A DNA stretch of 49,470 nt, from assembly GCA_001007665.1 (NCBI GenBank), contig JXQG01000006.1:1-49470 (forward strand), written 5' to 3'. The translations under genes and the position numbers were made by a program. Source of the stretch: Candidatus Synechococcus spongiarum SP3. GTDB lineage: Bacteria > Cyanobacteriota > Cyanobacteriia > PCC-6307 > Cyanobiaceae. The notes beneath the pieces are model-generated. The model searched no databases, was not told the origin of the DNA, and was given only the letters and a program-made list of their open reading frames with translations. Below, piece after piece: positions 38,440 to 44,181 of the stretch; position 1 is the first letter of the stretch, and each line of letters starts with the position of its first letter.

Positions 38440-39129
38440 CTAGGAAATTTCATGTGTATAATGTTCATTGCCTCCAACGTCAAGCTGATTAAAGAGAAGA
38501 AGTCTATAACCAAAGTCAGTGCAGGCTGCCTTCAAATCCGTTACAGAGTTTACGGATACAGAGTCGATGCCGGAGGGATTGAGAGCAAGGATTTGCACAG
38601 TATTGTTATCATCATCCAGTTGATATTCAATATGAAATTGCCTATATTTATGTCCACATAGTAGATAATTTCCCGAGTCATTGTATGAATTATCTTGAGA
38701 ATAAGCATAATAATAATAATGTTTCAGATTCAGATCACGATCGGTCTCTGTAACAATGCATTCATTGTGCGGAATCTCCCACCACCCCCTGACGGTCCAC
38801 CTGGGATTCACGGTGATGGTCAAGCCAGTTGAGCCATCCCTGCGAAACCTTTTATGAGTCGTGCCGAAATTATAATGCGCAAGAGCCAAAGAGAGTGTCG
38901 ATTGATCTGCGGTGCGGTTACAAAACTCCAGGTTGGCAAAGGCTGGCTCTGGGGCTGTGACGGGAAGGGCGGTGGCGAGAAGGCCGAGGGACAGCATCGT
39001 CAGCCTTGCTGTAAGGGATTCCAATGTTCGGTGGGGCGGGTGGGAAGAGTGATGAGCCGTGCCGCTGGGCAAGTATTGGCCGATGGCGTCAAGACATGAC
39101 GCGCTGCCTGGCGGAGTGTGCCGCTTCAT
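38440..39129 (-). CDS. DUF1036 secreted protein
   Basis: 229 aa. An Ala-rich hydrophobic region (ARLTMLSLGLLATALPVTAP, about 41-60) with a likely cleavage after AFA acts as a signal or anchor; the stretch before it is unusually long. The mature part begins LEFCNRTADQSTLSLALAHY and later TVRGWWEIPHNECIV, the Cys-N-x-T and G-W-W-x-I-x-x-x-x-C pattern of DUF1036, found in envelope proteins of Gram-negative bacteria. The rest is AT-rich and Tyr-rich (KHYYYYAYSQDN). ATG 39129 overlaps the Slam stop by 4 bp, so it is translated with the Slam gene. Role unknown; coupling suggests it works at the envelope with Slam. Confidence 0.75.
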   Translation of the reverse strand: MKRHTPPGSASCLDAIGQYLPSGTAHHSSHPPHRTLESLTARLTMLSLGLLATALPVTAPEPAFANLEFCNRTADQSTLSLALAHYNFGTTHKRFRRDGSTGLTITVNPRWTVRGWWEIPHNECIVTETDRDLNLKHYYYYAYSQDNSYNDSGNYLLCGHKYRQFHIEYQLDDDNNTVQILALNPSGIDSVSVNSVTDLKAACTDFGYRLLLFNQLDVGGNEHYTHEIS

Positions 39130-40517
39130 AACACCCTGACGAACTGCAGCTCTGCCCGCGTTCTTTCGTAATTGCGCAACTGCCGGGTGTTGGATTCACG
39201 AGTCTCGTGGGTCAGCACCAGCTTGGGGCTGAAGCCTTGCAGTGTAAAGGCACGGTTGAACACGGAGAGATTGAGCATCCGGGTGCGATCATTCCGCAGC
39301 TCTCCGGGGGGCGTGAACAACCCCCAGTTCCCCTGCCCCTCATAGTTTGTCCAGCGGTATTCTCCGTCGAGACCCACGGTGAAGCCGTGCGGCAGATCCA
39401 CGGAGGTCCCCAGACCCACAGACTGACTACTGTTCCGCCAGCGGGGTTCCGTCTGTTCTCGGTTGAGCCCGACGGTGGCTTCCAGGCTCATGATCGGTGT
39501 TGCCTTCCAGAGGGCAGTCAACGAAAAGTTGCTGCGCGGACCGTCCAGGTGAAGATCTTCGTCATAGTTGTACTGGTGGTAGGATACTTGGGTGCGGAGC
39601 AACACGCGCCTGCTCAGGAGATGGGACACGTCAAAACGGGCGCCGAGGTCATGGGATTCAGGCTCACCGCCACTCCAGGAGCGGCGGGCGCTGCCCCGCA
39701 GACTGATCTCCGTTCTGTTCCCGGGCAACCAGACTGGTCCCGCATAGGCGTGCAGGGAAGTCCCGTCAAAATGCCGTTCTTCGTATTCCGTTCGGGAGAC
39801 ACCGCCACCGACGCGAAGGCGGACGTCACGGCTCAGCGGATACTCGTAGTCTCCGCCCCCCCACAGAACAACTCCCAAGCCGGACTGGGGGCGTGCGTCG
39901 TCGCTGAGTTCGAACGGCAGACCTTCGAGCGGACCGTAGGTTGGATAGATCACCTCCGCATCGGTGGCCGCATTGATGTTGGTATCGGGAGCCAGGGTCA
40001 TGCCGAAAGAACCGCTCCAACGGCGCCGCTGCCGCATGGCCGCAAGAAACCTCCTGATTTTGGCAGCCACTGGCGGCGGCGGATTCTCCGCCAGCACCCG
40101 TTCGAACTCCTTGCGGGACAAACCGTCGCTGCGTTTGAGATAGAACGCCCGCGCCAGCTCCAGTCGCACCCGCACCAACTCCGGCTGGGCCACCAGAATT
40201 CTGTGGAACGCGCCAACGGCCTCGTCCAGATAGTCCTTTCGCTCCGACTCCGGCGTTTCAGGAAGCTGGGCTGCGCCCAGTGCCGCCAGACCCACCAGAA
40301 AGAGAACATCCACTTGCTCCGGGCTGTCCGGATGATCCGGAGCAAGGGGGCGCAAGATCGACAGCGCTTCGGTAAAGTTTCCTCCCTCGGTCAGGGTTCT
40401 CGCATTGTTGATCCGGGAGCCGGGCGACGGACGTGGTCCGGCCTGCTGGGCATTCACTGGCGCAGCAACGGACAGGAGGAGAAAGGCCAGCGTGCAGGCG
40501 ATCTTGAGGGAGCGCAT
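39126..40517 (-). CDS. Surface lipoprotein assembly modifier (Slam/DUF560) outer-membrane protein
   Basis: 463 aa from ATG 40517, with signal peptide MRSLKIACTLAFLLLSVAAP ending at VNA. The first half is a TPR domain (about 30-160, e.g. NNARTLTEGGNFTEALSILR then AFHRILVAQPELVRVRLELA, FYLKRSDGLSRKEFERVL). From about residue 165 (RRWSGSFGMTLAPDTNINAA) the sequence is a 14-strand beta-barrel, with alternating hydrophobic residues and DFxxRxE-type strands to the C-terminus. This TPR + barrel layout is SlipAM (DUF560). Slam proteins move lipoproteins or secreted proteins over the outer membrane. The best client candidate is the lipoprotein 1.5 kb upstream, on the same strand. A cyanobacterial Slam is unexpected and probably acquired. 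Confidence 0.85.
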   Translation of the reverse strand: MRSLKIACTLAFLLLSVAAPVNAQQAGPRPSPGSRINNARTLTEGGNFTEALSILRPLAPDHPDSPEQVDVLFLVGLAALGAAQLPETPESERKDYLDEAVGAFHRILVAQPELVRVRLELARAFYLKRSDGLSRKEFERVLAENPPPPVAAKIRRFLAAMRQRRRWSGSFGMTLAPDTNINAATDAEVIYPTYGPLEGLPFELSDDARPQSGLGVVLWGGGDYEYPLSRDVRLRVGGGVSRTEYEERHFDGTSLHAYAGPVWLPGNRTEISLRGSARRSWSGGEPESHDLGARFDVSHLLSRRVLLRTQVSYHQYNYDEDLHLDGPRSNFSLTALWKATPIMSLEATVGLNREQTEPRWRNSSQSVGLGTSVDLPHGFTVGLDGEYRWTNYEGQGNWGLFTPPGELRNDRTRMLNLSVFNRAFTLQGFSPKLVLTHETRESNTRQLRNYERTRAELQFVRVL

Positions 40518-40745
40518 CCGATAGGGACCACTGCAAAGGAAGAGCAGCAATCATAACGGTCGTTGTCGGCTGACGGCAGTTGGTTCACCGGCCCATGGGA
40601 GAGGACGCGACCCGTCCTGAGACCTTTTCACCAGCAACCTCGGAATGCTCCAAGATCTTCTACGTACAACTTCCCTCCCCCCTGGGCCAAAAGCTTCCTC
40701 ATGATCTCGGAGTAGACAACAATGCTGTTGGAGATCAGCACAGAG

Positions 40746-40785
40746 GGAGTTTCTCCAAGGCTTAGGGAGTTTCTCCAAGGCTTTT
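40746..40785. repeat. 20-bp tandem duplication
   Basis: AGGGAGTTTCTCCAAGGCTT is present twice in a row (40746-40765 and 40766-40785). It covers the 3' end of a weak small frame (40762-40911) and lies downstream of nothing well supported. Slippage is the simplest explanation. Confidence 0.8.
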
Positions 40786-40911
40786 CGCCAGGTCACTCAT
40801 GTCCTTGGCAGCCTCAGGACTGGCCTTGAGGTCGTAGTAGACTTCTTCATGCACGGTTTCCTTACGAGCAAACACGTTCTTCACAAGTGCTGAGATTGGC
40901 GTGGCTTTCAT
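40762..40911 (-). CDS. Small uncharacterised protein, doubtful
   Basis: A 49-aa frame starting ATG 40911 (MKATPISALVKNVFARKETV, then HEEVYYDLKASPEAAKDMSD). Composition is protein-like with a charged helix, and it is in a gap between Slam and the IS5 remnant. There is no Shine-Dalgarno sequence, no domain and the end is inside a tandem duplication. It may be the remains of an interrupted gene. Low confidence. Confidence 0.3.
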   Translation of the reverse strand: MKATPISALVKNVFARKETVHEEVYYDLKASPEAAKDMSDLAKSLGETP

Positions 40912-41396
40912 GGTAACAAAGGTGAGGAAGATAACAGAAGAGAAGGAATCAGTGAAGCTGCTCAATATCGAAGACGTTTGGTCATAGCCGAGAAGCAACT
41001 TGGTTGGAGCTGTTCAAGGGTCTTATCGATACGGCCGGTTCCCGTGTCAATTCTGCCGTTCACAGCCCTGCGGCTGGACATACTCCCCTTCTTCCAGAGA
41101 GCAGGCAACACAATGTCTGGAACGGCAGCGACAAAGCAGCCATGGCTGTCAGCATGGAGGATCATGGCCATCACGACGGCTGGTCCATGTGAGGGCTGTG
41201 AGGGGAGAAGAGAAAAGGGAAGCGTCATGGACGTTTACCTTTAAGAGACGAGATCCTTGTGCTGGAGTCGTTTTTCCTCGACGCGCCTGATCACCCACGC
41301 CATCTGGTCAATGGCGTCTGTCGCCCCGGCGGGAAACCCGTCGCACGGCAACCATGACCATTTTACCAACCGCCACCAGGGATCGGGCAGCGCCAC
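40912..41396. other. Unassigned region between Slam and the IS5 remnant
   Basis: No supported gene. Overlapping frames on both strands (for example 40962-41228 on the minus strand) have no recognised domain. It probably holds decayed sequence moved by the neighbouring insertion element. Confidence 0.4.
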
Positions 41397-41898
41397 AGAT
41401 GTTGGCCGAGGAGGGCGGGCACCGTGGGGTGGACCGCAAGGTATGGAGCGGCATCATCTACGTGCAGCGCCAGAAGAGGTGCTGATGTTGGATGCCGCCA
41501 ATGTCAAAGCACGTCGCACCGCCTGCAGTCTCAACAAGGGGGCGCTGACCCTCGATGGATGGGGGCCGCACGAAGAGGCGGACTGACCAGCCAACTCCAT
41601 GGAGTGTGGGACGGGAAGGGACGGCCTGTCCGCCTTCGCCTGAGGAAGGGCAATGCAGGGACTTCACCGGTGCTGACGTGCTGCTGAGGGACTTCCAGAG
41701 GCGAGCGTAAGGTCCCTTTCTGGTGATGGGCCTGACCCTGACCGCTCCCGGGGCGGGCTGGGCGACGAAGATCATGGCACTGCTCCTACGGCAGGGAAGC
41801 CGGCGCCATCGGATCGAGAATTTCCTTGCCAGAATCAAGGAGCACCGGTGCATTGCCATCCGTTACGTACGACAAAACCGCCAGCAGCGATAGCCGCT
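41397..41898 (+). mobile_element. Degenerate IS5-family transposase remnant
   Basis: Pieces of one transposase occur in order but in different frames. VDRKVWSGIIYVQRQ fits the front; VMLDAANVKARRTACSLNKG the DDE-domain D-x-T-x-x-K-A-H-R-T-A region; LHGVWDGKGRPVRLRLRKGN the L-H-A-V-x-D-x-x-G-R-P motif; and RHRIENFLARIKE near 41805-41845 the C-terminal H-R-I-E-N-x-F-x-R-L-K box. The catalytic middle is shortened and several shifts break the frame, so it is inactive. No clear terminal repeats. It separates the lipoprotein gene from the Slam gene. Confidence 0.8.
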
Positions 41899-41943
41899 CG
41901 CTGGAGCCTCGTGGCAACCTTCTCGCGGCAAGGTAAATCCCAT

Positions 41944-41970
41944 AAAAAAGCCTCCCGCAAGGGAGGCTTT
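41944..41970 (-). terminator. Rho-independent terminator of the lipoprotein gene
   Basis: On the minus strand AAAGCCTCCC and GGGAGGCTTT form a 10-bp stem with a 4-base TTGC loop, followed at once by a T run (GCTTTTTTATG). It begins about 49 bp after the lipoprotein stop codon. It closes that transcript before the IS5 remnant and Slam. Confidence 0.9.
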
Positions 41971-42018
41971 GCAGAAATCATGACCAGGCGAAGGGACGCC
42001 ACCACCACAAACAGTTCC

Positions 42019-44181
42019 TCAGAAATCGTCTTCAGACAGATCCTTAGAAAGGTCGCTATCCAGGTTAGCGCCGAACGCACCCACCATCCGGCCGTCTTCG
42101 CCGTACTGGGAGGAGAACGTGCCGGTCACCATCGTCGGAGTCCCGGAATTGTCGTTTTTCCAGAGCTGTCCAGACCACTCGCCGGCGGGGTCGGCGGCTT
42201 CGCCATTGACTTCCCACGTTGTCATGGCGTCCGTGCGGGTCGAAATTCTCCCCGTGGTCCGATCGACCACCAGTTGCTCCCGGGTTGAGGTTATGCTATC
42301 AATACGGTTGTTCATCAACTGGACAGACCAACTACGAGGCTCACCGTCTGCGCCTACGAAGTTGTCGATAATGCCATTGATGAGCTTGCTGTTGGGGGCG
42401 GGGGAGCTGCCGAAATTGGCTCTGATCGTTGCCTTCGCGGTGAAGTGGCCGGAGTCGGGGCTGCCAGATTCGCTGTAGAGAACGTACTTGCCGGCAGCAC
42501 CGCCCACATACGCTGCGTATCCTCCCGTGGGAATTTCTGTAGGCATTATCCAACCCTGATCACCGTGGGCTGCGTGGAATGCACTTACGACGGCATGCTC
42601 ACTGTCATCGTCATCAGGATCAGGGCCGTTGTAGATCCACCAACCATAGGAGGTGTAGGTGGTGGGAGTATTCACAAGATATTCTTCTTCTCCTTCGCTT
42701 GGTGTATTAGCGATGAAATACCAGTTTACGCCGGTAGGCGACCCTAATGCGAGACTGAAAACGGGATCGGAACCATAATAACCTAAATCAAATCCACTGT
42801 TTGTGATTGCAATTGCGCAACCGACAGCCACACTTGTTTGCGCAGTGGTTTTTTCGCAACGGTAAGTGCCGGGCACTCCGTCAAAGAAGCCAGGAAATAA
42901 TAGGGCATTTGTATCGTCTGGGAATGGGAATAATGCCGAACCAGAAGTTATATCGGCTAATTCTTCATCATTGAGGATTGAGTCGGGTAATGTTTCAGCG
43001 CTAAAATCAAACCTGAACATAGCAGTTATGTCGCTGGCAGTGCCATCTTCAATTAGAGACAGCTTATTTTCCTCTCCAATATCGCCACCGTACCTTTGGG
43101 CATACGTTATCTTTTCGTTTTCTTCGGGACTCGAGTAGACATAGGCTTCGTACATGCCAGTTACGTCATTTCCGGAGGCCATGTACTTCTTGCCTTCCCA
43201 GCCATAGAGAGGGGTAACCATCATCATTTCCTGGTTTTCCATATCTTCCATGTTTTCCATATCTTCCATGTTTTCCATAACTTCCATAAGAACTTGTTTA
43301 TCAGCCTCAAGAGCCGTATCATCATCAGGACCATCGAAGCTTACCGTGAATTTATCCCCATCATACATGGCCATTCTCCTTCCTTCGCCCGTGTCGTTCA
43401 AGGGATCTTCACCGATGCCTTCATACAGTGTAGCGGCCATCTCCTCAGCCTCCCTCGCAGCCTCCCTCGCCATCTCCTCAGCCTCCCTCGCAGCCTCCCT
43501 CGCAGCCTCCTCAGCCTCCTTCACAGCGCGTTCGTTTCTGTTTGTTTCGACGGCTGCCTGGGCAGCATCGAGCCGATTGTTGAAGGTCTGAAGCTCCTCC
43601 TCGGTCAGGGCGGTTGCGCTAGTGACCTGAGTTCGAGCAGTAGTGATCAGGACATCGACGGCGGCCTCGTCTTCAGCGGTGGAGTCGCTGTTCAGTGCCA
43701 AGGCCGCAGCTTCAGCAGCCTGGACCGCCATTTCGACGGCTGTCAAGGCTGCATTCTTCGTGTTCTGAGCATCAACCTCACCCTTGAGGTTCAAGTAGTC
43801 CATGGCCGCCTGGGTCAGCGCAGCCGTGACCGTGCCGCCGGTTGACTGCACATTTCCATTCGCCATAACCGTTACCTCGCAGTCATCCCCGCCGCTGGCG
43901 CACGAGAACATGACACCACCCATGGCGAGAGACCCGCCCGCCGGGATTGTCACGGGTGCCGCAGTAGAAGCGGGTGCATAATTGGACGGCAAGTTAGCAG
44001 GCAGCGCTACTTGCACTGGTTCCACTATTTCCGTCGGTGGCGTCTCTTCCATGCCCGATGTAGAGTGGGCAGAAGTGGTGTCCGAGCTACCACCGCAGCC
44101 AGCCAGAAGGGCGCCACAGCAAGCCGCCAACGCAACGGCACGAAGACTGAAATTCGTTTTGGTCATGGTTGTTTTGGTCAT
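42019..44181 (-). CDS. Large surface lipoprotein, coiled coil and TbpB-like C-terminal barrel
   Basis: About 720 aa. The signal peptide and lipobox are MTKTNFSLRAVALAACCGAL then LAGC, with +1 Cys followed by GGSSD (sorting to the outer membrane is favoured). Start choice: ATG 44181 (MTKTTMTK) or 44166 (MTKTNF); both keep the signal. Residues about 130-250 are Ala/Glu-rich and coiled coil (EEAAREAAREAEEMAREAAR), followed by a Met/Glu repeat. The C-terminal half is beta-rich and ends with GEWSGQLWKN and GTFSSQYGEDGRMVGAFGAN, the pattern of TbpB-type handle/barrel domains (G-x-F-x-x-x-x-x-x-x-x-x-G-x-F-G-A) of Slam-exported lipoproteins. It is likely the client of the Slam at 39126-40517. Ligand unknown. 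Confidence 0.75.
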   Translation of the reverse strand: MTKTTMTKTNFSLRAVALAACCGALLAGCGGSSDTTSAHSTSGMEETPPTEIVEPVQVALPANLPSNYAPASTAAPVTIPAGGSLAMGGVMFSCASGGDDCEVTVMANGNVQSTGGTVTAALTQAAMDYLNLKGEVDAQNTKNAALTAVEMAVQAAEAAALALNSDSTAEDEAAVDVLITTARTQVTSATALTEEELQTFNNRLDAAQAAVETNRNERAVKEAEEAAREAAREAEEMAREAAREAEEMAATLYEGIGEDPLNDTGEGRRMAMYDGDKFTVSFDGPDDDTALEADKQVLMEVMENMEDMENMEDMENQEMMMVTPLYGWEGKKYMASGNDVTGMYEAYVYSSPEENEKITYAQRYGGDIGEENKLSLIEDGTASDITAMFRFDFSAETLPDSILNDEELADITSGSALFPFPDDTNALLFPGFFDGVPGTYRCEKTTAQTSVAVGCAIAITNSGFDLGYYGSDPVFSLALGSPTGVNWYFIANTPSEGEEEYLVNTPTTYTSYGWWIYNGPDPDDDDSEHAVVSAFHAAHGDQGWIMPTEIPTGGYAAYVGGAAGKYVLYSESGSPDSGHFTAKATIRANFGSSPAPNSKLINGIIDNFVGADGEPRSWSVQLMNNRIDSITSTREQLVVDRTTGRISTRTDAMTTWEVNGEAADPAGEWSGQLWKNDNSGTPTMVTGTFSSQYGEDGRMVGAFGANLDSDLSKDLSEDDF
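43235..43287. repeat. 18-bp tandem repeat in the lipoprotein gene
   Basis: The unit TTTTCCATATCTTCCATG occurs at 43235-43252 and 43253-43270, with a third, imperfect copy at 43271-43287. It encodes (M)ENMED-type six-residue repeats. As the unit is a multiple of three, copy-number change would alter length without shifting the frame. Confidence 0.85.
43441..43506. repeat. 33-bp tandem repeat encoding an 11-residue coiled-coil unit
   Basis: Two 33-bp units (43441-43473 and 43474-43506), nearly identical except at the 3' bases, code for AREAAREAEEM-type 11-residue units. The hendecad spacing is typical of coiled coils. A smaller repeat of CCTCCCTCGCAG lies inside each. Confidence 0.8.

Follow-up and report, generated by a model that had tools for sequence, protein, structure and literature searches.

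Does a sponge-dwelling cyanobacterium carry a T11SS, a kind of system that has been described as proteobacterial (PMC5449769, PMC12282271), and if it does, what would the system place on the cell surface? The question was raised by a 49,470-nucleotide stretch of DNA (the window), a single contig from a 2.13 Mb genome, in which the original prediction had located a Slam-type translocator, a coupled DUF1036 gene and a lipoprotein with a TbpB-like C-terminus. All three genes were found between positions 38440 and 44181 on the minus strand, as had been predicted, in the transcriptional order lipoprotein, 1.5 kb spacer, Slam and DUF1036 (Table 1). The cyanobacterial host was borne out as well: the genus relatives are Candidatus Synechococcus spongiarum and its kin, which are known sponge symbionts. 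Mis-binning of the contig is unlikely, because it also encodes ribosomal protein S4 and the order S4-Slam-DUF1036 recurs in an independent genome (G004), where S4 is 96% identical to that of the window. The explanation that best joins the evidence below, and one we hold to be highly probable, is a T11SS locus in a sponge cyanobacterium, with a surface lipoprotein as cargo, a Slam received horizontally and cargos acquired repeatedly.

Table 1. Coordinates of the features of the Slam locus in the window.
Feature	Coordinates	Strand	Basis or remark
Cargo surface lipoprotein, 720 aa	42019..44181	-	Lipobox, homologous cargos, model, fold matches
Cargo Ala/Glu-rich helical coiled-coil stalk, residues ~120-255	43417..43824	-	Modelled helices
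Cargo C-terminal barrel domain, residues ~509-707, putative Slam targeting domain	42061..42657	-	Model; motif VTGTF...GRMVGAFGA, shared by cargos adjacent to Slam
Spacer, cargo to Slam	40551..42018	-	No recognised gene; probably decayed inserted DNA
Slam/T11SS outer-membrane translocator, 463 aa	39126..40517	-	Signal peptide, TPR domain, SlipAM barrel
DUF1036 protein	38440..39129	-	PF06282; Sec-type signal; overlaps Slam stop by 4 nt

Judged from its sequence, the gene between the spacer and DUF1036 is a full-length Slam/T11SS translocator. Its open reading frame reaches position 40550, with an ATG at 40517, and the product matches the SlipAM profile (PF04575, DUF560) with an E-value of 3.3e-25 (89.7 bits, cut-off 22) over profile positions 1–286 of 288. 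At the N-terminus a signal peptide could be read off the sequence, and TPR_19 scored above its cut-off, while TPR_Slam (E=0.0017) remained below its own. With a full barrel and a TPR domain, the protein meets the expectation of a Slam-type translocator, which would have failed had the barrel been closer to another porin family; the next porin-like family, PF10082, stayed below its cut-off. A PDB sequence search with the Slam profile gave no match. A phylogeny, which the original prediction had proposed as a check, groups the window protein with other Slams that have an adjacent cargo.

The lipoprotein has a lipobox, LAGC, at residues 26–29 (Cys29), followed by GGSS, so that the mature protein has a Gly/Ser-rich start; CGGG or CSSS occurs in many related cargos. 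An AlphaFold model of the window cargo, made from 32 cargos, has an overall pLDDT of 71.2, with most blocks of the stalk and barrel above 80. Signal peptide and lipobox are followed by a disordered linker, a small Cys-containing β module (residues ~75–113), a stalk, a handle and a barrel. The stalk is modelled with high confidence as alanine/glutamate-rich helices at residues 120–161, 169–188 and 194–255 (pLDDT mostly above 90), in keeping with the alanine-rich coiled coil that had been predicted. The handle, or pedestal, and an eight-stranded TbpB-like barrel are modelled at residues 268–470 and 509–707, respectively, and this combination is what characterises the known cargos of Slam (PMC5449769, PMC12282271). 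The best Foldseek match of the model is the TbpB C-lobe (E=4e-4), and all 50 matches listed by a second structural aligner are to solved hemophilin/HphA, fHbp, TbpB or HpuA structures, with Z scores of 12–15 (hemophilin 7rea, 15.3; fHbp, ~14; TbpB C-lobe 5kkx, 13.7; HpuA, 12.4). The predicted structure, then, upholds the TbpB-like C-terminus, which would have been refuted by anything other than a lipocalin-like or TbpB barrel: what was modelled is a handle and barrel of the TbpB/fHbp/hemophilin type. Sequence similarity to characterised cargos is near background, and the link to them rests on a predicted structure. The Pfam profile TbpB_B_D had no match in the window cargo and reached another cargo of the genus (P0005) with an E-value of 3.5e-5, just under the curated cut-off; in a PDB sequence search P0005 hit nothing but a single protease family, at a level that looks like chance, and BLASTP of the window cargo against a Novosphingobium cargo gave a weak stretch only. 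The model has one handle-barrel lobe, not the two that, along with transferrin binding and a TbpA receptor partner, mark transferrin-binding protein B proper; we do not file the window cargo as TbpB.

The small Cys-containing module (window 43790–43960, residues ~75–130) is ~60% identical to stretches at three other loci (L069, L072 and L057), with weaker copies at L036 and L038. Some copies of the module lie away from Slam.

Is this lipoprotein tied to the translocator? The motif quoted in the original prediction, GTFSSQYGEDGRMVGAFGA, is present in the protein; it is not the C-terminal end it had been taken for and stops ~15 residues short. Its occurrence is beyond chance: of 80 related Slam loci, ~47 encode a homologous lipoprotein, in most cases immediately upstream of Slam, and many of these proteins share the ending. 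Counting that of the window, seven of the ten genomes of the genus have Slam, and no Slam was found in the 50 further genomes covered by the genus search; a cargo profile search of the genus found cargo in exactly the seven Slam genomes and in none of the other three. Were the two sets independent, such agreement would be expected 1 time in 120, ignoring kinship. A homologous cargo gene lies directly upstream of Slam in G005, G009 and dozens of related loci; none was found beside Slam in G004, G006, G007 and G008, and the contigs of G006 and G008 start close upstream of Slam. Several genus genomes carry several cargos, and in G004 two copies in tandem are almost identical. Near a ferredoxin-dependent sulfite reductase gene, two species have different cargos (L124 2594–11078 and L125 223–10448), in what looks like the same locus. 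In a sample of 386 genomes from across the cyanobacterial phylum, Slam was detected only in the window genome; a single further hit (G417), marginal (E=8e-5) and partial, was not counted.

These observations bear on whether the locus has been misread. If the barrel protein were some other porin-like outer membrane protein, and the nearby lipoprotein unrelated and periplasmic, its weak sub-threshold matches to BBP2_2 and TIGR03016 and the distance between the two genes in the window would be easily accommodated. That reading is already contradicted by the PF04575 score, by the adjacency of cargo and Slam in dozens of related loci, by their co-occurrence in the genus and by a modelled cargo fold of the Slam-cargo type, and we give it next to no credence. 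In many related loci the gap is much shorter, at ~90–540 nt; in the window it is 1.5 kb, which makes co-transcription of cargo and Slam doubtful. Four open reading frames of the spacer lack a convincing Pfam match, and a 94-nt piece of it is 81% identical to a segment elsewhere in the genus (L012 17849–17940). Such apparently decayed DNA could be taken as a sign that the symbiont has no further use for the system and that the whole locus is a decaying relic, all the more as other members of the genus show damage. G002, which lacks Slam, still has fragments of Slam (43 aa) and DUF1036 (44 aa, containing a stop) next to an intact S4, arranged as they are in the window (L128 108–1032, G002:C152), and from these the system appears to have been lost there; in G009 the Slam gene is split by a frameshift (L015 5825–7407, G009:C43), either an assembly error or a pseudogene. 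In the window, however, Slam, DUF1036 and cargo are all intact open frames, Slam and DUF1036 are under purifying selection across the genus (dN/dS 0.20–0.42 and 0.22–0.42, respectively) and several genomes keep several cargos, so that decay seems an improbable account.

We next consider the DUF1036 gene, which had been predicted to be coupled to Slam. Its product matches PF06282 (E=5.5e-12, 46.8 bits, cut-off 23) and has a Sec-type signal (AFA/N). The coupling stands in the window, where the DUF1036 ATG overlaps the Slam stop (39126–39129), and in the genus, where DUF1036 adjoins Slam in all seven genomes that have Slam, with an ATGA overlap in five. It does not extend further: tblastn found DUF1036 at none of the 75 non-cyanobacterial related Slam loci, and a genus member without Slam or cargo (G003) has a Slam-type DUF1036 that is 53% identical (L126 8368–8997, G003:C8). 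Since it is adjacent to Slam in this genus only and persists without it, DUF1036 was rejected as a universal Slam partner. As an addition to the best explanation, it might still be a dedicated working part of this particular system, such as a chaperone, an adaptor or a soluble cargo. The adjacency, the overlap, the purifying selection and the Sec-type signal are compatible with such a part, but the 75 loci without it, G003, its occurrence in Synechococcus elongatus, the absence of a C-terminal barrel and a model too poor to interpret (pLDDT 54.5, with no clear match in a fold search) are not what would be expected, and we entertain the idea only tentatively. DUF1036 is best described as a lineage-specific neighbour of Slam, possibly accessory; it is probably a periplasmic or secreted protein recruited in this genus, with no role assigned. 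A second, divergent DUF1036 gene lies near a contig end (L016 67–1158, G000:C83); the short lipoprotein frame that comes next has a poly-Gly stretch behind its lipobox.

Where did the cyanobacterial Slam come from? A search among 84,980 prokaryotic species gave 273 matches, of which the best 80 were examined. All 80 are uncultured records, spread over many phyla (Nitrospinota, Nitrospirota, Alpha- and Gammaproteobacteria, Binatota, Myxococcota, Acidobacteriota and Gemmatimonadota among them): 32 are jk18x/p16x bins, 31 RHO/COS/CAR/IRC/APA/CO bins, eight SB06 bins, three come from bins 56, 75 and 107, three are OY assemblies, two are Ca. S. spongiarum and one is a MEX2 bin. The codes RHO, COS, CAR, IRC, APA and CO are in line with the sponge species in an earlier study (PMC8163846), and genomes of the S. 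spongiarum genus occur within the jk18x and SB06 series. Nearly all of the 80 apparently come from sponge projects; many of these assignments are inferred from bin names, and the OY and MEX2 records are left open. A strong match was present in 7 of 18 Nitrospinota and 8 of 296 Nitrospirota genomes, with almost none between strong matches and noise. Among cultured organisms, for which only a plasmid collection was searched, the closest Slam was 34% identical. Slam genes were also seen in bins labelled Chloroflexota (L045, L049, L051 and L072). As Chloroflexota are a monoderm phylum and these Slams are interleaved with proteobacterial ones in the tree, they are probably mis-binned contigs.

In the Slam tree, the cyanobacterial proteins form one clade (support 100/94) inside a superclade (100/99), and the cultured Slams that were tried fall outside it. 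The cargo tree places the genus cargos in several supported positions among cargos of other phyla. Some are 54% identical to an alphaproteobacterial cargo versus 31% within the genus, others 48% to an acidobacterial cargo versus 35% within the genus, and those closer to other phyla lie on contigs of 49–63 kb. Both trees are consistent with a translocator that was kept while cargo was acquired repeatedly: horizontal transfer inside the sponge microbiome would most likely have brought Slam into the genus, which would have taken different cargo genes, time and again, from co-symbionts of other phyla. The direction of Slam transfer is inferred, and the scatter of the cargos could partly reflect old paralogy with losses, which is not fully excluded. 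The closest relatives occur in unrelated bacteria, apparently mostly from sponges, which suggests that symbionts share a means of meeting the host and that it has spread horizontally. A broader claim, for which we see the chances as even, is that sponge symbionts of at least six diderm phyla commonly display surface proteins by means of this superclade, which would have spread horizontally in the microbiome; each lineage would conserve its translocator, and cargo adhesins or receptors would be exchanged freely. If true, symbionts that are not related would face the host with proteins of one kind.

In the mechanism that we propose for the window, the lipoprotein would be synthesised with a Sec/lipobox signal and, once lipidated, transported to the outer membrane. 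Slam, with a periplasmic TPR domain and a membrane barrel, would recognise the C-terminal TbpB-like barrel of the cargo and move it to the outer face, where the N-terminal lipid would keep it anchored and would leave the handle, the barrel and the long helical stalk with its small cysteine module exposed. Beyond the observed gene identities, predicted cargo fold, co-occurrence, tree positions and purifying selection on Slam and DUF1036, the Slam-dependent export of this cargo is inferred from family and fold, with strong support from homology. A part in contacts with other symbionts or with the sponge host, the latter favoured by the original prediction, is a hypothesis, and no ligand has been identified. 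The exported lipoprotein could instead be mainly a nutrient scavenger, a co-receptor for heme, metal or protein-bound iron in the manner of TbpB or hemophilin. These are its closest folds, and known cluster 1 T11SS loci co-occur with heme and metal pathways (PMC12282271). Yet a non-systematic look at the identified neighbours (hydroxyacylglutathione hydrolase and S4) revealed no obvious TonB receptor or heme oxygenase, and the long helical stalk resembles Pls-like and not TbpB-like cargo; we consider scavenging as the main function rather unlikely.

Among the papers searched, none connected T11SS with cyanobacteria or with sponge symbionts. We regard the locus as a genuine T11SS with a predicted surface lipoprotein: the machine is of a known kind, the phylum is new and the clade is apparently common to sponge symbionts. 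A copy under selection in a sponge cyanobacterium extends T11SS to a photosynthetic phylum. Sponge symbionts reportedly have few classical secretion systems, and their Cyanobacteriota reportedly lack cadherin adhesins (PMC8163846), so how these bacteria touch their host is open; a shared translocator with diverse, exchangeable surface lipoproteins offers concrete candidates for host-contact molecules.

How does the locus compare with known systems? Like proteobacterial Slam/T11SS, it combines a translocator of TPR domain and SlipAM barrel with a lipoprotein cargo predicted to end in a TbpB/fHbp/hemophilin handle and barrel, and in loci related to that of the window the cargo gene is directly upstream of Slam. 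It differs in belonging to a cyanobacterium and to a superclade of many phyla, apparently mostly sponge symbionts, in its distance from cultured Slams and in the DUF1036 gene that overlaps Slam in the genus. The Slam of Novosphingobium pentaromativorans plasmid pLA3, the 34% identical protein mentioned above, shares the order of cargo then Slam, with a TbpB-like solute-binding protein as cargo, but falls outside the superclade and has no DUF1036 annotated nearby. With the TbpB C-lobe, fHbp, hemophilin and HpuA, the modelled cargo shares the handle-barrel fold over mostly 165–220 residues, at only ~11–19% identity and with a different N-terminal part. In layout the cargo is also like Pls of Haemophilus parahaemolyticus, which is paired with TepS (PMC12282271): both have a long charged helical region before the handle and a C-terminal barrel. 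The likeness is one of layout; the helical part of the window cargo is not the EEARKA repeat described for Pls. The Pls-like helical cargo was displayed in E. coli only together with its T11SS (PMC12282271).
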